The notes beneath the pieces are model-generated. The model made no database searches. It saw only the letters and a list, made by a program, of their open reading frames with translations, and was not told the DNA's origin. Both the position numbers and the translations under genes were made by a program. From assembly GCF_023806485.1 (NCBI RefSeq), contig NZ_JAMSLR010000003.1, forward strand, positions 252,965 to 316,964: a stretch of DNA of 64,000 nucleotides. Reading direction: 5' to 3'. Shown here piece by piece: positions 43,936 through 52,645 of this stretch; within the stretch, counting starts at the first letter, position 1; each line of letters opens with the position of its first letter. This DNA is from Thermalbibacter longus (GTDB lineage Bacteria; Chloroflexota; Chloroflexia; Thermomicrobiales; Thermomicrobiaceae).

Positions 43936-45303
43936 CTACTGCCCGAGTTGGACGAGCCCGTTGGCCCGGATGACCTCGGAGTACCAGGCGTAGCTCTCCT
44001 TCGGGATCCGCTCGAGTGTCTCGTAGTCGATGTAGATCAGGCCGAAGCGCTTGCTGTAGCCGTGTGCCCACTCGAAGTTGTCCATCAGCGACCAGACGAA
44101 GTACCCGCGGAGCGGCACGCCGTCTTGCAGCGCGCGGTGGGCGGCCGCGAAATGGTCGTGTAGGAAGGCGATCCGCTTCGGATCACGCACTGCCCCGTCC
44201 TCGAGCTGGTCGGCGAAGGCGGCTCCGTTCTCGGTAATGTAGATCGTCGACGGCGCAAAGTCGCGTTGCAGGCGGATCAGGAGCTCGTAGAGCCCGTCGG
44301 GCACGATAGCCCAACCCATCTCGGTGAGCTCGTAGCCGGCTGCCTGGAGTTCTTCAGGTGGGACCAGGATTGCCTTCAGCGGGTTCAACACGGAAGCATC
44401 GTACCGGACGAATGCGGGCGTATAGTAGTTCACCCCCAGGAAGTCGATCGGCACGGCGATCGCGTCCAGGTCTCCCGTCTGGGCCGTGGGAGCCAGCTCG
44501 CCGTACGTCGCCAGCATGTCCTGGGGGTAGCCGCGACCGAAGAGGGGGTCGAGGAACCAGCGATTCAGGAAGCCGTCGTAGCGCTGGGCTGCCAGCCGAT
44601 CCTCCTCGGCTTCGGTAGCTGGCCGCACCGGCGAGAGGTTGAGCGTGATGCCGACCTGCGCGTCAGGCGAAGCGGCTCGGATGGCCGGCACCGCGTGCCC
44701 GTGCGAGAGCAGAAGGTGGTGGCTCACCTGGATCGCGATGCGGGCATCCTGGATGCCCGGAGCGTGGACGCCGAGGAAGTGGCCAACAAAAGCCACAACC
44801 CAGGGCTCGTTGTGCGTGATCCAGTGCTTGACGCGATCGCCCAGTCGCCGCGCCACGACGTCGGCGTAGGCGGCGAAGGCCTCGGCCGTCTCCCGCGCGG
44901 CCCAGCCACCGCGGTCTTGCAGCGCCTGGGGAAGGTCCCAGTGGTAGAGCGTGACGAAGGGCGTGATCTCGGCCTGGAGCAGCGCATCGACTAGCCGATC
45001 GTAGAAGTCCAGGCCGCGCTGGTTGACCTGCCCGGTACCCTGGGGAAGGATGCGCGGCCAGGCGATGGAGAAGCGATAGGCCGGCGCGCCCAACTGTTGC
45101 ATCAGGTGGACGTCCTCCGGCCAGCGGTGGTAGTGGTCACAGGCCACGTCACCGGTGTGGCCCTCGAACGTCTTGCCCGGCGTGTGGCTGAAGGTGTCCC
45201 AGATCGAGGGGCCGCGCCCGTCCTCGTCGACGGCGCCCTCGATCTGATAGGCGGCTGTCGCCGTGCCCCAGAGGAACCCGTCGGGGAAGCGCCGCTCGAC
45301 CAT
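43936..45303 (-). CDS. Beta-glucosidase, glycoside hydrolase family 1
   Basis: 455 residues, the usual GH1 size. FLWGTATAAYQIEG at the N-terminus, acid/base Glu166 in WITHNEPWVV, nucleophile Glu358 in IYITENGAAF, and the C-terminal YFVWSLMDNFEWAHGYSKRFGLIYIDY are all present. It cleaves terminal beta-glucosides or galactosides in the cytoplasm (no signal peptide). It stands alone on the minus strand; no sugar transporter is adjacent. Confidence 0.96.
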   Translation of the reverse strand: MVERRFPDGFLWGTATAAYQIEGAVDEDGRGPSIWDTFSHTPGKTFEGHTGDVACDHYHRWPEDVHLMQQLGAPAYRFSIAWPRILPQGTGQVNQRGLDFYDRLVDALLQAEITPFVTLYHWDLPQALQDRGGWAARETAEAFAAYADVVARRLGDRVKHWITHNEPWVVAFVGHFLGVHAPGIQDARIAIQVSHHLLLSHGHAVPAIRAASPDAQVGITLNLSPVRPATEAEEDRLAAQRYDGFLNRWFLDPLFGRGYPQDMLATYGELAPTAQTGDLDAIAVPIDFLGVNYYTPAFVRYDASVLNPLKAILVPPEELQAAGYELTEMGWAIVPDGLYELLIRLQRDFAPSTIYITENGAAFADQLEDGAVRDPKRIAFLHDHFAAAHRALQDGVPLRGYFVWSLMDNFEWAHGYSKRFGLIYIDYETLERIPKESYAWYSEVIRANGLVQLGQ

Positions 45304-45445
45304 CCCACGCCCTCCCTTCTATCGCGAGGCTGGTGCCGAACCGCGAGCGAGATGGCACCTTCGGTCTCGGCGAACCACCCCTGGATTATAGAGGCTAGGC
45401 GATGGTCGAGGATCGCCTCAGTGGTGACCCTGGTGCCCCAGCTCG

Positions 45446-46033
45446 TCAGGGAGCGCGGAAGCTCTCGATCACGAGCTCGATTTCCGGGAGCGCTGTGGCG
45501 TCACATCGGTCGGGCGCGTCGGTCTCGATCCGTACCACGAAGCCGGTTCTGCTTGCGAGATAGCCGGCGGCTACAGCGCGGCGCTGCTCGCAGTGCCTGC
45601 CGGCGCCGGGGTCGAAGCTCACCATCGCCGCCGGCAGGCGGCCGCCATCGACGGCGAACTCGCGGGGCATCGACCTGCCCGGCACATCTTGCAAGACCTG
45701 CTGGAGCAACGCCTCTGGCGTGGCCGCGTCGACCTCGGGCACGACCTCCACGACCATCCGAAAGCTTCCACCCCAGACCGGTGACTCGCTGTCGTCGATG
45801 AGGACGCGCCGGGCATCGTCGGAGACGCTGACGGTCGCGCTCTTCGGGATCGAGAGGCGGAAAGCCCAGTTCGGGTCGAGGTAGCTCTCGAACTCGTACA
45901 CCTCCCCGCGGACGACCTCAGCCGGGGGAGGCGTTGCGGTAGGCACAGAGGGAAACCACGTCGCGAGACAACCAGCACCGCTCACCAGTGCGAAGGTCCC
46001 GACAGTCAGCAACAGCACACGTGTTCGATGCAT
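45446..46033 (-). CDS. Hypothetical lipoprotein
   Basis: 195 residues. Signal peptide and lipobox VSGAGC22, then a Thr/Pro linker. The domain (about 42-195) reads VYEFESYLDPNWAFRLSIPKSATVSVSDD, VLIDDSESPVWGGSFRMVVEVVPE and ALLQQVLQDVPG, a mixed alpha/beta pattern loosely like PsbP folds; two Cys (in RHCEQRR and DRCDATA) could form a disulfide. I do not recognise the family. It sits just outside the low-GC island and has normal host GC. Confidence 0.65.
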   Translation of the reverse strand: MHRTRVLLLTVGTFALVSGAGCLATWFPSVPTATPPPAEVVRGEVYEFESYLDPNWAFRLSIPKSATVSVSDDARRVLIDDSESPVWGGSFRMVVEVVPEVDAATPEALLQQVLQDVPGRSMPREFAVDGGRLPAAMVSFDPGAGRHCEQRRAVAAGYLASRTGFVVRIETDAPDRCDATALPEIELVIESFRAP

Positions 46034-46089
46034 CCCGCACCTCCCTGGGATTCCAGGCTAACTTCATCGTTATACGAGCCACACTCGCC

Positions 46090-47838
46090 CTAGGATTCGT
46101 TACCAACCCGGCGCCACTCCTCGACGTTCCACATGCATGACATCTGCCCAGCTAGAAGCGAGAATCCCTCAATTCGTGAGCTTACTAGAGCCACTCGCTG
46201 ATACTCGAATAGTGGTAGGACAGGAAGGGACGACGCAAAGAGCTCCTGCTGTCTATGATATATCGTAAACCGCTCTGTAAGGGTATGGGCAGCAGCACTC
46301 TTCTCAAGAAGCGAATCATTGGCAGGATGAGTCCAGCCAGAGAAGTTATCGCCGTGCCAGTTATTAGAGATACTAGGAATGCTTGCTGAGTGCCAAAGAT
46401 TAATAGCATCTGACTCTATAGTGTCCATTTCCCACGAGAAGAGTGCGAGATCAAATGTGTGTGAGGCTAACAATCCACGTGGTCCTAAGAGGGCTTCGGC
46501 AGCAATCGGTCTGACGGTAACTGAGATCCCAATGTTCCTAAGATCATCACGGATAAGGTTCGCGACGCGCCATCGAACGTCGTTGCCCGTCGCCACATAG
46601 AGCGTAAGCATGAGATGCTGACCGTTGCGCGAGGCGAAGCCGTCCTTGTCAGATACGTAGCCTGCTTCGCTCAAGAGGCGTGAGGCATAGCCGGGATCAT
46701 ATGTATATTCCTGGAGCACAGGAGTATGAGCCCAGTGACTGCTTGGCAGCCAACTGCTCATCACGGAACCGAACGCACCCAGAGCCTCATTCACCAGACG
46801 CTCACGATTGATAGCATGTGCGATGGCCTTTCTGACCCGAGAATCCCCAAGGGCTGGATGCTGAAGGTTAAAGTCCAGCCGTTCCCATTTGAAGCCCGGT
46901 GCAGTAGCAACAAGACCGTCGATCTGGATTCGATCTATTTCTTCCAATGATACTAACAGAGAATCGTCAGAAACTATATCTATTGTCCCCGAGATAAACT
47001 CTTCGATTAGTCGCCGCTCGTCAGGAATTACGCTAACAATAATGCGCTCAGAAGCTGGTCTTCTCCCAGCGAAAAAGGGGTTGGCCTCCAGAGTGATAAC
47101 CTGAATTGCTGGCCAGAGGTCATTTGGTGAAACAGCTTTTACTCCCGATCTGTCATATTCTGAAGTCTCTCCAACATAACGCCATTCTGTGACCACATAA
47201 GGACCGAGGCCAACTGGGCGAAGAGGGAAGATGCTAGTGTCCAGATCTTCCTTGGTCATTCCGCGCAATACGTGCTCCGGCAGGACTACGCCGCTTAGTA
47301 ACCTGTCGAGATCGACTAGCGGACGGCCAGGTCGTGTGGTGACGACGACTGTTCGGTCATCAGGAGTATCGATGCGTTCCACTGCTGAGTGTTGACTACC
47401 AGCTGTGTTGGCTACTCGTTCCATGAAGTTGAAGGTGAACTTGACATCCGAGGACGTGACGGCCCTCCCATCTGACCACCGTAGACCGTTGCGAAGGTGA
47501 TATGTGATGGTGACTCGTGTCCCCTCATACCGAACCCCACCATTGTCCAAGGTTGGAATAGACTCAACAAGTAAGGGGCGACCGTCGCCATCGGTTGAAT
47601 GTAAGCCGCGGTGTACCGCTGCACTAATCGTTCGAGTTGATGGCCACGGGTAGTCAATCGGAAGGGTTGTTTCTATAGGCTTTGTTAGACCTACTCGAAT
47701 TGCTGCTTGCGATGTATCATGGGAGTCAGCCCGTTGGGTAGCAGTTAACCATAATGGATAGATGGCAAATAGGAATATGCCAAGAAGAAGCAGAAGTTGT
47801 GAATTGGTTAGATACTTTTTCGCCCGCAGAGTAATCAT
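46090..47838 (-). CDS. Orphan SBP-family-5 binding protein with N-terminal membrane anchor
   Basis: 582 residues. One hydrophobic segment (about 14-34, LLLLLGIFLFAIYPLWL) with no lipobox Cys, so anchored or secreted by signal peptide. The SBP_bac_5 domain is clear: AAVHRGLHSTDGDGRPLLVESIP, TYHLRNGLRWSDGRAVTSSDVKFTFNF, FPLRPVGLGPYVVTEW and DSRVRKAIAHAINRERLVNEAL. The ATG has GGAGG five bases upstream. Base composition is far below the neighbours (about 45-50% GC by eye), with codons such as TTA, AGA and ATA, suggesting transfer. No permease or ATPase genes are adjacent; the only neighbour in the island is the secreted protein at 47,955. Confidence 0.88.
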   Translation of the reverse strand: MITLRAKKYLTNSQLLLLLGIFLFAIYPLWLTATQRADSHDTSQAAIRVGLTKPIETTLPIDYPWPSTRTISAAVHRGLHSTDGDGRPLLVESIPTLDNGGVRYEGTRVTITYHLRNGLRWSDGRAVTSSDVKFTFNFMERVANTAGSQHSAVERIDTPDDRTVVVTTRPGRPLVDLDRLLSGVVLPEHVLRGMTKEDLDTSIFPLRPVGLGPYVVTEWRYVGETSEYDRSGVKAVSPNDLWPAIQVITLEANPFFAGRRPASERIIVSVIPDERRLIEEFISGTIDIVSDDSLLVSLEEIDRIQIDGLVATAPGFKWERLDFNLQHPALGDSRVRKAIAHAINRERLVNEALGAFGSVMSSWLPSSHWAHTPVLQEYTYDPGYASRLLSEAGYVSDKDGFASRNGQHLMLTLYVATGNDVRWRVANLIRDDLRNIGISVTVRPIAAEALLGPRGLLASHTFDLALFSWEMDTIESDAINLWHSASIPSISNNWHGDNFSGWTHPANDSLLEKSAAAHTLTERFTIYHRQQELFASSLPVLPLFEYQRVALVSSRIEGFSLLAGQMSCMWNVEEWRRVGNES

Positions 47839-47846
47839 GAAGCCTC

Positions 47847-47871
47847 CAGGACTTAAAATGTGCAGGACTTA
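47847..47871. repeat. Two 9-base direct repeats upstream of the binding-protein gene
   Basis: CAGGACTTA occurs at 47,847-47,855 and 47,863-47,871, a 16-base period, just before the start of the minus-strand binding protein (TAAGTCCTG on the coding strand). They could be a direct-repeat regulator site or chance. Confidence 0.35.
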
Positions 47872-47887
47872 GCAGCTGTGCGCGTGA

Positions 47888-47913
47888 GGGGGAGGGGGGG
47901 TGCTCCCTCCCCC
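47888..47913. other. G-rich hairpin between the two island genes
   Basis: GGGGGAGGG (47,888-47,896) pairs with CCCTCCCCC (47,905-47,913) over an 8-base loop. There is no T-tract, so it may attenuate rather than end transcription from the secreted-protein gene into the binding-protein gene. Confidence 0.4.
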
Positions 47914-47954
47914 TGATTTACCCGGCTGGCCACTGTCTTCCGGTGGGATATGCA

Positions 47955-48683
47955 CTACCTGTTTGAGCAGTTTCCCCATTGGAAAAGTCCCCGGCCACAA
48001 TTGGCCATTTCCATACCCCAGGGCTCTCCATTGGCCCAGCGGGTGACATAGCGGTTCGCAACGGTATTATAGGGTGTCTTTCTCCCTCGCCATTCCAGGC
48101 TGTAGTGGGTACTCCAAGGAAATGGATTGTAAGTGTCGGAACTTGCGGGGAAAGTCGTGGAGATGCCAGTTCCTGCATAGGTGAGTGAAAAAGTGATGGT
48201 TTGTCCATCTGAGGCACGGACTTGACCGGCTGGGTCCCAATCAACTAACCGAGCTGGACTCGTATTAGAGCGGATCCAGGGCTCAAATCGAGTCAGCTCC
48301 CAGTACTGGTGACTGTACGCTGACCCAACGGCCTCGACATAGAACAAATCGCTGCGCCCGTTTATCTTGAAGAAGTTCCAACTTGTGTAATCGGTAAGTC
48401 GGCTATCACCTGATGACCAGGTGACGCTAAACCAATACTGGGTGTTCCCCCATGTGCTTGCAAGCGGTGTCACTTGCTCCCCAGTTCGCCGCACACGTGA
48501 CGACTGCTCTACCATTGATGGTGTTACCAAAGCGGGAGGTGGGGTCTGACTGCCGCCTGCATGGTTCGCGGAATCTGAGAAACCGGGTTGTAAATCTCGC
48601 GTCGGCTCGGCTGCTGCGGCAGAGTACGTGGTGAATATTGCGAGGAAGATGATCGCAGGAAGCGAGCGAAGAACACGCATCAT
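47955..48683 (-). CDS. Secreted protein of unknown family (low-GC island)
   Basis: 242 residues. Signal peptide at about 1-25 (RVLRSLPAIIFLAIFTTYSAAAA), a Pro/Gln/Thr linker to about 60, and a Trp/Tyr/Ser/Thr-rich domain: WGNTQYWFSVTWSSGDSRL, YTSWNFFKINGRSDLFYVEAVGSAY, HQYWELTRFEPWIRSN, GQTITFSLTYAGTGIS and HYSLEWRGRKTPYN. The only cysteines are at the C-terminus (NCGRGLFQWGNCSNR), which could close a small disulfide loop. The aromatic beta-rich pattern suggests an extracellular binding or structural protein; I do not recognise it. Composition is low GC like the downstream binding protein. Confidence 0.7.
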   Translation of the reverse strand: MMRVLRSLPAIIFLAIFTTYSAAAAEPTRDLQPGFSDSANHAGGSQTPPPALVTPSMVEQSSRVRRTGEQVTPLASTWGNTQYWFSVTWSSGDSRLTDYTSWNFFKINGRSDLFYVEAVGSAYSHQYWELTRFEPWIRSNTSPARLVDWDPAGQVRASDGQTITFSLTYAGTGISTTFPASSDTYNPFPWSTHYSLEWRGRKTPYNTVANRYVTRWANGEPWGMEMANCGRGLFQWGNCSNR

Positions 48684-49095
48684 GTTAATATCCCTTTCAC
48701 CATGTGAGTCTGGACTCAGTAGTTATTGATCGCTGCTAGGCTTCACGGGCTAGCCGACGCTCATCTGCCTTGCCTCCTTCCTTGCGCCGCATGCTACCTA
48801 TGGGCGAGGAGTAGGTGGATACAGAGAAGACCTGTGGAGGGCATGCAGTGGTTGCCTTAGCTAGCATAAGGGAGAGCAAGCGAAATGCCAAGAGTTTCGA
48901 TGCTGAATTGGCGGATGGCTGAGCTCGGCGATTTGTTCAGGCCGCCATCGTGCTAGCCCCGGTTGCGTAACCCAGGATTAATGCCGATCTGCGCTGGCGA
49001 CGTGGAGAGAAGACCAGCCGCAGTGCGATGCGGACACCGCAGTAGCGGTCATGCACGTCGCAGCGGGGAGCTGAGGCTGTAGAGGCAAGGCTGGG
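48684..49095. other. Intergenic stretch without recognisable genes
   Basis: 412 bases between the secreted-protein start and the end of the dnaX remnant. GC is intermediate. No open frame here has codon bias or similarity that convinces, and no tRNA, repeat or clear promoter was seen; the left end must hold the secreted protein's promoter (its AAAGGG ribosome site is visible). Confidence 0.5.
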
Positions 49096-49821
49096 TCAGC
49101 TGATCTCGCGGGCGTCGAAGATCGACCTCGCGGCTTCGAGCCTGTGCTGGTCGCCCGGGGGGAGCGGTGCTTTTCCACACGGCTCCGCTGGGGCACCACC
49201 CTCTCAGGCCCGCCGGCCGGTTGCCCTGACTCTGAGGGAGTGCCCTGAGTGTTGAGGAATGGAAGCTCTTCGGGGGTGAGACAGGCAACCCGACAGTGCT
49301 GGCCCAGCGCGCGAAAGTACCTGCTCGATAGCTTTGCGGAATCCGGGCTGCTCAACGATGTGCCTGCGGTGGGATTCGTACGATGCGATGAGGACGACCT
49401 CTTCGCCGCGCACGATCCGTGGCTCGGTATCGACGAGTAGAGCACCATTGGCGTTGATCGCGCGAACCTCGCGCCGGATCGCGCTCGAGCGCGTAACGAG
49501 CTGTTCGAGCGCTGTCGCGTCGCTTACCGACGCGGCGCTCTCGGGTAGGTCACTCGGCTATCTAGTCGTCTCGCAGGACTGCCGCGCGGTCTGCGCGAGC
49601 GAGGAAACGGCTGCAGGATGCGGCGCGGCGGGAGTCAGACTGGAAGCGGCGGGTGCTGGGCCGGATGAGGCAGAGGCCGAGCTCCGTTGGATGGGACGCC
49701 GACCGCGCTGGCGGATCTCTCCGTCGGGGACAGCAACTGCCGCTGTTGGAGCCGTAGTGGTCGCCCTCGGGTCGCCGCCAGGGAGCAGAGTATCGATATT
49801 CTCGCAGGCACGCTTACTCAT
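49096..49821 (-). pseudogene. Decayed copy of the dnaX 3' end (C-terminal tail of DNA polymerase III gamma/tau)
   Basis: On the minus strand, 15 bases after the intact dnaX stop, a Pro/Ala/Ser-rich linker runs into LEQLVTRSSAIRREVRA and RGEEVVLIASYESHRRHIVE, colinear with LEKLIASWAQIRREVKA and AGDDVYLVSPYEFHRSKLNE of the DnaX tail at 49,837. The remnant then shifts frame (SRYFRALGQHCRVACLTPEELPFL, matching SRYLGRAYRVHCVAPEEVPAI) and returns to the first frame for HRLEAARSIFDAREIS-stop, matching RLRAAKSIFDAEEIG. An in-frame TAG is at 49,560-49,558. The AAA+ domain is absent. The divergence implies an old duplication or an incoming homologue rather than a recent repeat. Confidence 0.85.
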
Positions 49822-49836
49822 ACGTAAAGCCTGGCT

Positions 49837-51681
49837 TCACCCGATCTCTTCGGCGTCGAAGATGCTCTTGGCCGCCCGCAGCCGCGCCTCGTCCGCCGGG
49901 CTCCTGGCTGAGTGGGTCGCCTGGCTCTCCGCTGCGGGATCCGGCATCGACGCCGTGCCGGCTGGCTCGGGGTTCGGGCCGGCTTGAGCCGGCGCGATCG
50001 CCGGGACCTCCTCGGGCGCGACGCAGTGGACCCGGTACGCGCGCCCGAGGTAACGGCTGATCACGGACTCGACCAGCTGCCGGTGTACCTCCTCGTTGAG
50101 CTTCGAGCGGTGGAACTCGTAGGGGGAGACCAGGTACACGTCGTCCCCGGCGACGAGCGCCGGATCGACCGAGGTGAGCAGCGCCGCCGTCTGGGACCGG
50201 GATGCCTTGACCTCGCGCCGGATCTGAGCCCAGCTCGCAATCAGCTTTTCCAGCACCGCGGCCTCGCTCGCGGAGTCGGAGCCAGCGCTGGCCCGGGTGG
50301 TTGCCATCTCTCGGGGAACCGCCCCGTTACCCGCGCTGTGCGCCACGGCTTGCGGCATCGGCGGGGCGTCTTCGCGCGCGGTGAAGTCGGGATCCGGCTC
50401 CCGCGGAGACACTGCTGGCCCGCTGGCCGGCCCAGCGGTCGCCGGAGCCGGCTCGGGGGCGCGCGGCGTGCGGCTGGCCGTTGCCGGCTGTGTTGGGGGC
50501 TGAGCCTCGCTCGTAGCGTCTCGCCAGTGGGTGGTCACCCCCGGCTCGCCGCCGAGCCGGAGCACGGCTTCGACCGTCGCCAGCTCGAGCGGGAGCTGCG
50601 GGTCGAGGCCAGAGCGCGGCAGGACCAGCTCCAGGCCGCTGTAGATGCGCAGCAGCGTGGCCAGCTCAGCCAGGCTGAACCGCTCCGCCTGCTCGCGGGC
50701 TGCCGGATCGGCGAGATCGTCACGACCACCGGCCCGCAGATGGAGCAGCGTCCGCAGATAGCCAGTAATCTGACGCCCGAACTGCTGCAGATCCTCACCG
50801 TTCTCCGCCGCTTCGGCGATGATCCGCAGCCCGGCACCGGCGTCGCGCCTGATCAGCGCGTCGACCAGGCCGGCCAGTCGCTCATCCCGGCTCAACCCCA
50901 GGGCCTGGCGCACCGCCTCGGCGGTGATCCGCGTCCTGCCCTCAGCCCCTTCGGCGAACAGGGCCATTCGCTCGAGCAAGCCGAGGGCGTCGCGCAGGCT
51001 GCCGGTCGCCTGCTGGGCGATGAGCGCCAGGGCATCGTCGTCGATCTCGATTTCCTCCTGCTGGCAGACCCAGCGGAGCCGGGCGAGCATGCTGCTGAGC
51101 GGGATACGGTGGAAGTCGAAGCGCTGGCAACGAGACGCGACCGTATCGGGCAGCTTATCTGGCTCGGTGGTGGCCAGGACGAAGGCGACGTGAGGGGGTG
51201 GCTCTTCCAGCGTCTTGAGGAAGGCGTTGAAGGCGTCGCGGGTGAGCTGGTGCGCCTCGTCGATGATGTAGAACTTGACCCGGAGCTGGCTCGGCGCGTA
51301 CTTCACCTTCTCGCGCAGGTCACGCACGTCGTCGACCCCTCGGTTGGAGGCAGCGTCGATCTCGACGATGTCGACGGCTGAGCCGGCGTTGATCGCCTCG
51401 CAGGCGGCGCAGGCGTTGCACGGCCGAGCCCAGGGATCCGGATCGAGACAGTTGACGGCCTTGGCCAGCAGGCGCGCGGTGCTGGTCTTGCCCGTGCCGC
51501 GTGGCCCGCAGAAAAGATAGGCATGGGCGATCCGGCCCAACCCGATCGCGTTGCGAAGCGTGCGGGCGATGTGCTCCTGGCCGACGAGCTCGGCCGGGTC
51601 GAACGAGCGGGGCCGGTACTTCCGGTACAATGACGAGGACTGCGCGCGCTGGTTCCGGCCGCTCTCCTGGGAATCGGTCAT
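49837..51681 (-). CDS. dnaX: DNA polymerase III subunit gamma/tau
   Basis: 614 residues. AAA+ clamp-loader domain: Walker A at 59-67 (GPRGTGKTS), zinc Cys78, 88, 91 and 94, Walker B with DEAH at 141-144, sensor 1 in FVLATTEPDKLP and SRC (arginine finger) in TVASRCQRF. Domain III follows to about 375, then a Pro/Ala/Thr linker (about 385-490) and a C-terminal tail (LEKLIASWAQIRREVKA to SIFDAEEIG). It loads the sliding clamp and organises the replisome. The ATG at 51,681 is where similarity begins. No slippery heptamer for a shorter gamma form was seen. It is divergent from rsmI. Confidence 0.96.
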   Translation of the reverse strand: MTDSQESGRNQRAQSSSLYRKYRPRSFDPAELVGQEHIARTLRNAIGLGRIAHAYLFCGPRGTGKTSTARLLAKAVNCLDPDPWARPCNACAACEAINAGSAVDIVEIDAASNRGVDDVRDLREKVKYAPSQLRVKFYIIDEAHQLTRDAFNAFLKTLEEPPPHVAFVLATTEPDKLPDTVASRCQRFDFHRIPLSSMLARLRWVCQQEEIEIDDDALALIAQQATGSLRDALGLLERMALFAEGAEGRTRITAEAVRQALGLSRDERLAGLVDALIRRDAGAGLRIIAEAAENGEDLQQFGRQITGYLRTLLHLRAGGRDDLADPAAREQAERFSLAELATLLRIYSGLELVLPRSGLDPQLPLELATVEAVLRLGGEPGVTTHWRDATSEAQPPTQPATASRTPRAPEPAPATAGPASGPAVSPREPDPDFTAREDAPPMPQAVAHSAGNGAVPREMATTRASAGSDSASEAAVLEKLIASWAQIRREVKASRSQTAALLTSVDPALVAGDDVYLVSPYEFHRSKLNEEVHRQLVESVISRYLGRAYRVHCVAPEEVPAIAPAQAGPNPEPAGTASMPDPAAESQATHSARSPADEARLRAAKSIFDAEEIG

Positions 51682-51772
51682 CCTCGAGGCTCCCTGTCTC
51701 GGGAAGACGGCGGTTGTCCGTACATGATGTGAAGTATAGCCGGCATTGCCTGACCGGCAACGGCGGGAATCG

Positions 51773-52645
51773 ATGGGAACGCTGTACCTAGTCGCCACGC
51801 CGATCGGCAACCTGGAGGATATCACCCTGCGCGCGCTGCGCACGCTGCGTGAGGTGCCGCTGATCGCCGCCGAGGACACCCGGCACGCGCGCAAGCTCCT
51901 CGGCCACTACGGCATCCAGACGAAGCTGGTGAGCTTCCACGAGCACAGCCCGCCTGGCCGGGTCGCCGAACTGATGAAGGCCCTCGAGCGGCACGATGTC
52001 GCGGTGATCTCGGACGCCGGGATGCCTGGCATCAGCGACCCCGGGCTGGTGCTGGTACGCGAGGCGGCGGCGCGCGGCTTCGACGTCGTGCCGGTGCCTG
52101 GCCCGTCGGCGGTCACCGCGGCGGTAGCGGTCTCCGGGCTAGTCGAGGACGGATTCCTGTTCCTGGGTTTCCTACCCCGCCGGGCGAGCGAGCGGCGCCG
52201 GCAATTGGAGTCGCTAGCTGGGCTGCCGTTCCCGCTGGTCCTCTACGAGGCGCCGCATCGGCTCCGCGAGACGCTGCGCGACCTCGAGGCGACGCTCGGG
52301 GATCGACCGCTGGCGATCTGCCGCGAGCTGACCAAGCTGCACGAGGAGGTGTCGCGCCTGACGATCGGCGAGGCGCTGCGTCGCTACGAGGCCGAGGCGC
52401 CGCGCGGGGAGTTCGTGCTGGTGATCGGTTCCCCGCAGGAGACGACGCATCCGCCAGGCGAGGCCGAACTGCTGGCGCTCCTGGAGGAGCAGATCGCAGC
52501 CGGGCGGACGGCGAGCGCGGCGGCGCGGGAAGTAGCGAGGGCGACGGGTGCCAGCCGGCAGGCGGTCTACCGCCTTGCGCTGAACCTCCGCGGGCGGCAT
52601 GCAACCGGGCTGTCCGGCATCTCAGCGGGTGACGCTCGGCCATAG
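51773..52645 (+). CDS. rsmI: 16S rRNA (cytidine-1402 2'-O)-methyltransferase
   Basis: 290 residues, tetrapyrrole-methylase fold. GTLYLVATPIGNLEDITLRALRTL, IAAEDTRHARKLL, VSFHEHSP, VISDAGMPGISDPG and VPGPSAVTAAVAVSG are the RsmI signatures, with FLGFLPRR and LYEAPHRLRETL later. It methylates the ribose of C1402 in the decoding centre using SAM. ATG 51,773 is chosen over the upstream ATG because the family starts at GTLYLVATP. It is divergent from dnaX. Confidence 0.95.
   Translation: MGTLYLVATPIGNLEDITLRALRTLREVPLIAAEDTRHARKLLGHYGIQTKLVSFHEHSPPGRVAELMKALERHDVAVISDAGMPGISDPGLVLVREAAARGFDVVPVPGPSAVTAAVAVSGLVEDGFLFLGFLPRRASERRRQLESLAGLPFPLVLYEAPHRLRETLRDLEATLGDRPLAICRELTKLHEEVSRLTIGEALRRYEAEAPRGEFVLVIGSPQETTHPPGEAELLALLEEQIAAGRTASAAAREVARATGASRQAVYRLALNLRGRHATGLSGISAGDARP

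Follow-up and report, generated by a model that had tools for sequence, protein, structure and literature searches.

Our analysis of the window, the whole 64 kb stretch of DNA that was examined, shows that a decayed dnaX 3' end lies directly behind the intact dnaX gene and that this remnant is a xenolog, not a duplicate of the adjacent dnaX. Its gene tree conflicts with the species tree, whereas the resident copy agrees with it. We consider it probable that the remnant derives from the 3' part of a foreign dnaX, is non-functional, was horizontally acquired and joined behind the resident dnaX by illegitimate recombination, and has since decayed.

Comparisons were made with 158 genomes of the class, using the conceptual 125-aa remnant as the query. 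The genus codes g1 to g6 are labels of the search tool, and g4 includes Sphaerobacter records. The features of the locus that enter into the argument are the following.

43936-45303, minus strand: GH1 beta-glucosidase gene (bgl; TIGR03356), the native right-hand flank, with 85-87% amino-acid identity to the sister species
45304-49836: the whole lineage-specific insertion, from the dnaX stop to the beta-glucosidase start; dnaX and bgl are adjacent in both sister species, g5 and g6
45446-46033, minus strand: high-GC ORFan of 195 aa with a lipoprotein-like signal and no homologue in the 158 class genomes
46090-47838, minus strand: low-GC family-5 extracellular solute-binding protein, 582 aa, GC3 0.49, intact (PF00496, E 2e-59; best match in G076, 42%)
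47955-48683, minus strand: low-GC secreted protein of no known family, 242 aa, GC3 0.56; its only good-scoring relative in the class is in G076, 48%
49096-49155, minus strand: remnant block 3 (GDQHRLEAARSIFDAREIS, then its own stop), frame 0, the natural DnaX end
49221-49325, minus strand: remnant block 2 (beginning SRYFRALGQHCRVACLTPEELPFLN), frame 1, shifted by one frame relative to block 1 (tblastn)
49309-49530, minus strand: remnant block 1 (ALEQLVTRSSAIRREVRAINANGALLVDTEPRIVRGEEVVLIASYESHRRHIVEQPGFRKAIEQVLSR), frame 0 (tblastn)
49531-49836: left part of the insertion, a Pro/Ala-rich reading frame with a TAG at 49560-49558 and no significant similarity to any DnaX linker
49837-51681, minus strand: intact native dnaX (tau), 614 aa from ATG, with AAA+ ATPase and DnaX_C domains (Pfam/NCBIfam)

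When the full DnaX ORF is searched against the window by tblastn, the sole significant non-self match is 49530-49096(-), which aligns with residues 541-686 of the long dnaX ORF at 33% identity (E 1.8e-13, 65.5 bits). An earlier note, made from the letters alone, had described three minus-strand blocks in two frames that are colinear with the DnaX tail, and this search bears it out at the same place. The remnant scores 66 bits against the adjacent DnaX tail and 95.5 bits against a g5 tail, far above the maxima from 1000 dinucleotide shuffles (25.0 and 22.7 bits, respectively).

The colinear stretches of the three blocks run over 49518-49309 (frame 0), 49316-49221 (frame 1) and 49155-49096 (frame 0), so the remnant contains two compensating frameshifts, one at about 49325-49309 and the other between 49221 and 49155, and the note was right about both. 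It had also described the blocks as split by a TAG, but that codon sits upstream of block 1; blocks 1 and 3 share a frame that contains a TGA at 49206-49204. Block 3 closes with RLEAARSIFDAREIS and a stop, the natural DnaX end, for which the corresponding termini are RLEAAKAIFDAVELS in g5 and RLRAAKSIFDAEEIG in the adjacent dnaX, each followed by a stop. With significant colinear similarity to DnaX, no AAA+ part and a disrupted reading frame, the remnant is a dnaX pseudogene fragment. It has no relative in plasmids.

The interval that the note had assigned to the remnant, 49096-49821, is thus too wide: 49096-49530 is dnaX-derived, but the left part of about 40% (49531-49821) is only Pro/Ala-rich and shows no significant similarity to any DnaX linker by the shuffle control. 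Position 49531 to 49836 is possibly a decayed DnaX linker. It has no DNA match in the 158 class genomes apart from short matches judged to be chance.

The intact gene provides the reference against which the remnant can be read. It is 84-88% identical to its counterparts in the sister species over the full length. The rpoB gene assigns the genome to g1, with G002 and G003 as its sisters, and the tree of the N-terminal DnaX ATPase domain agrees; these observations show that the intact dnaX is the vertically inherited copy, and it follows that the remnant is the foreign one. The long dnaX ORF, which starts from TTG, runs into 51682-51894, antisense to the start of the divergent rsmI gene. Its residues 1-46 match family-wide, probably as a result of this overlap with rsmI, and the true dnaX start is likely the ATG at 51681.

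Among the 158 class genomes, the best scores of the remnant are to the four g5 dnaX tails (89-95 bits, 50-53% identity), followed by g4 at 58-59 bits and then by the adjacent dnaX at 57 bits and 41% identity. For block 1 on its own, amino-acid identity is 59% with the g5 genome G017 and 41% with the adjacent dnaX. A maximum-likelihood (ML) tree built from the tails joins the remnant to g5 (support 96/90), although the branch of the remnant is long, at 1.2 changes per column, and its exact place is uncertain. The AU test rejects a grouping of the remnant with the adjacent dnaX (p 1.6e-5) and with all g1 tails (p 0.0019). A one-residue insertion in the remnant is common to g5 and g6 only, and g1, g3 and g4 lack it. 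The closest relative of the remnant is therefore outside its own genus, and because the intact dnaX is vertical, we regard the remnant as a xenolog. The earlier description of a decayed second dnaX copy holds as far as a decayed dnaX 3' end is concerned, and this end is old, as the note had said, and not a fresh repeat; it is not a copy of the neighbour (53% to g5 versus 41%, and the AU test).

The highest identity to g5 is just 53%, so that the donor is not among the sampled genomes and no high-identity source was found. First- and second-position changes between the remnant and g5 reach 0.27 and 0.26, compared with at most 0.13 and 0.06 among the g5 genomes, an excess that fits a loss of constraint. 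Third-codon-position distances were considered as a clock and dropped, being near saturation and not discriminating. HerA fusions apart, no second dnaX tail like the remnant was seen elsewhere among the 158 class genomes; G120 has two weak matches, on different contigs.

Comparison with the sister species locates the insertion. In G002 and G003, dnaX is followed by the GH1 beta-glucosidase gene after 15-17 bp, and genera g5 and g6 have the same gene order. Here, 4.5 kb separates the two genes and holds the remnant, a spacer, the low-GC gene pair and the high-GC ORFan. The remnant adjoins dnaX, the cargo sits beyond the remnant, and the beta-glucosidase is g1-like from about its third codon on. 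In the comparison that the earlier note had proposed, the remnant and the low-GC genes vanish together, both being absent from the two sister species. Across rsmI, dnaX and bgl, the DNA is mostly 75-95% identical to that of the sister species, with no mosaic step. Neither insertion junction shows clear homology or microhomology, and a search of 40-56 kb with Rfam returned nothing.

A GC break and codon-position composition set the cargo apart. Relatives of both low-GC genes, adjacent and in the same order, are found in G076 (L095:8735-11612(+)), where no dnaX is present among the large ORFs in 20 kb around the pair. As a pair, 46090-48683(-) is present in just two of the 158 class genomes and looks like a sporadically transferred unit. 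The secreted protein has no relative in collections of plasmids and viral contigs, and the ORFan has no match in Pfam, NCBIfam or PHROGs.

Three further matches were set aside. A 42-bp match to G001, a genus mate with an incomplete genome, is chance and lies opposite a GntR-type gene. Within the remnant, an inverted stretch matches the start of bgl at 74% over 35 nt, which was informally judged to be at chance level. Behind the dnaX stop, ATGAGTAAGCG resembles the sister bgl start (9/11 bases, with spacing as in G002), but the spacer is unlike and the match was not used.

From the position of the remnant, we infer how it may have been joined. The donor would be a lineage next to genus g5, in the same family, and its DNA would have arrived by horizontal transfer, most simply after the split from the two sister species. 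The insertion site, as the comparison with the sister species shows, is the short dnaX-bgl spacer (15-17 bp there), immediately downstream of the resident dnaX, and the event would fall within or before the insertion that bears the two low-GC genes and the ORFan. The dnaX-bgl synteny of donor and recipient may have guided the incoming DNA, with at least one illegitimate junction just past the dnaX stop, as in homology-facilitated illegitimate recombination (HFIR), and frameshifts and amino-acid changes would have followed. The low-GC pair would be of a different source and may have entered in another step. Most likely the fragment does nothing, tau being supplied by the intact dnaX.

Transformable bacteria provide documented cases of HFIR, which also occurs in E. 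coli, though at low frequency (PMC3240628). The present locus resembles pseudogene fragments placed by HFIR in that foreign, partly homologous DNA stands beside a resident homologue; in such products one or both junctions lack homology. However, the event here is old and read from anatomy, with no junction homology left to inspect. We retain HFIR-type joining because insertion by an integrase and single-crossover integration both give the wrong order of parts. Single-crossover (Campbell) integration of a circular donor, in particular, leaves the cargo between the 3' ends or the foreign tail on the first copy, and neither is seen.

A point that counts against this explanation is the coincidence that it demands, since a random illegitimate insertion would have to land in register behind dnaX, and we therefore considered a route in which the position of the remnant follows from its history. 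Here, a g5-type dnaX would for a time have replaced the essential tau gene in an ancestor of this species and would then itself have been displaced by a g1-type dnaX. A g1-type rsmI-dnaX fragment would have recombined homologously at rsmI/dnaX and illegitimately at its right end, and the previous 3' end would thereby have come to lie behind the new gene. Such a displacement needs just one illegitimate junction to explain where the remnant lies, which way it points and why the order is dnaX-remnant-cargo, and it accounts for this order better than our favored explanation does. Displacement of orphaned 3' regions has also been suggested for Rhs loci and for the T6SS modules of V. cholerae (PMC5361080). 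However, it needs two transfers in one species, and the uniformly g1-like rsmI, dnaX and bgl genes, with the identity range given above and no mosaic step, speak against it. We consider it rather unlikely, but if true the locus would record how a core replisome subunit was replaced across genera more than once.

Rhs and T6SS effector loci with orphaned 3' regions are nonetheless a useful comparison, since there too an intact gene is followed in series by a second 3' end that is divergent and non-functional. In contrast to those loci, the gene concerned here is a conserved replisome gene, selection for diversity is not evident, and it is the intact copy that was inherited vertically.

An old tandem duplication of the native dnaX tail followed by decay, which the earlier note had kept as a simpler possibility, would account for the adjacency, the same orientation and the colinearity of the remnant, and unconstrained sequences do evolve fast, so that long branches can be misplaced. 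The AU result (p 1.6e-5) and the residue inserted in common with g5 and g6 nevertheless make this origin very improbable. All four g5 tails outscore every g1 tail, the copy is absent in the sister species, and the tree together with the AU test rejects a common origin after the genera split.

Even harder to sustain is the footprint that the note had suggested, an attachment-site scar left by an integrative element using the dnaX 3' end. The locus is like such elements in that an insertion with foreign low-GC genes aboard lies exactly behind a housekeeping gene, but it is unlike them in having no integrase (the cargo ORFs confirm what the note had said on this point), no tRNA, no flanking direct repeat that could be an attachment site, and the wrong order of parts. 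Insertion by an integrase would leave the cargo between two 3' ends, and here it lies beyond the remnant. Moreover, such a scar would be divergent and longer than 400 bp, the secreted protein of the cargo lacks the plasmid and viral relatives mentioned above, and use of the site is not repeated, the remnant occurring in this genome alone among the 158 (the two weak G120 matches on different contigs aside). An assembly error or a contaminating piece from a g5 organism is scarcely credible: the genome (3.63 Mb) is in 80 contigs with 2% estimated contamination, but the locus is embedded in a 405 kb contig and flanked on either side by native genes, and a remnant just 53-59% identical to g5 and frameshifted is unlike a real contaminant gene.

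Taken together, these observations describe a decayed acquired gene fragment that is ordinary in kind. Its general importance is modest, but it is a locatable trace of between-genera recombination at a replisome gene, and it illustrates that what looks like a "duplicated gene end" downstream of a gene can in fact be a xenolog. Had no gene tree been built, such a remnant would have been filed as a duplication or an attachment-site scar.

A separate observation concerns the DnaX tail in the sister species, in which a HerA-family translocase carries a C-terminal DnaX_C domain (G002 L049:8398-10662(+) and G003 L048:8138-10471(-)). The last ~150 residues of the fusion contain the domain (PF20964, E 3e-9 and 7e-8, respectively), and the gene lies directly behind NurA and DruA genes in both species; the NurA and DruA domain assignments were made on G002, and those for G003 rest on near-identical ORFs. 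HerA orthologues from g5 and from another family, 593 and 615 aa long respectively, stop short of the domain and give no DnaX_C match, and the gene is absent from the genome studied here. A literature search on HerA and NurA together with DnaX, the clamp loader or DruA found no paper whose title or abstract describes such a fusion. The fused tail groups with g1 dnaX in the ML tree of tails, with modest support (83/73), so that in genus g1 a DnaX tail has been copied onto a HerA protein and, as a separate event, a foreign tail was placed behind dnaX. The polymerase alpha subunit is a binding partner of the tau C-terminus, and HerA-NurA might thus be held at the replisome by way of the fusion, as a candidate defence or repair system.
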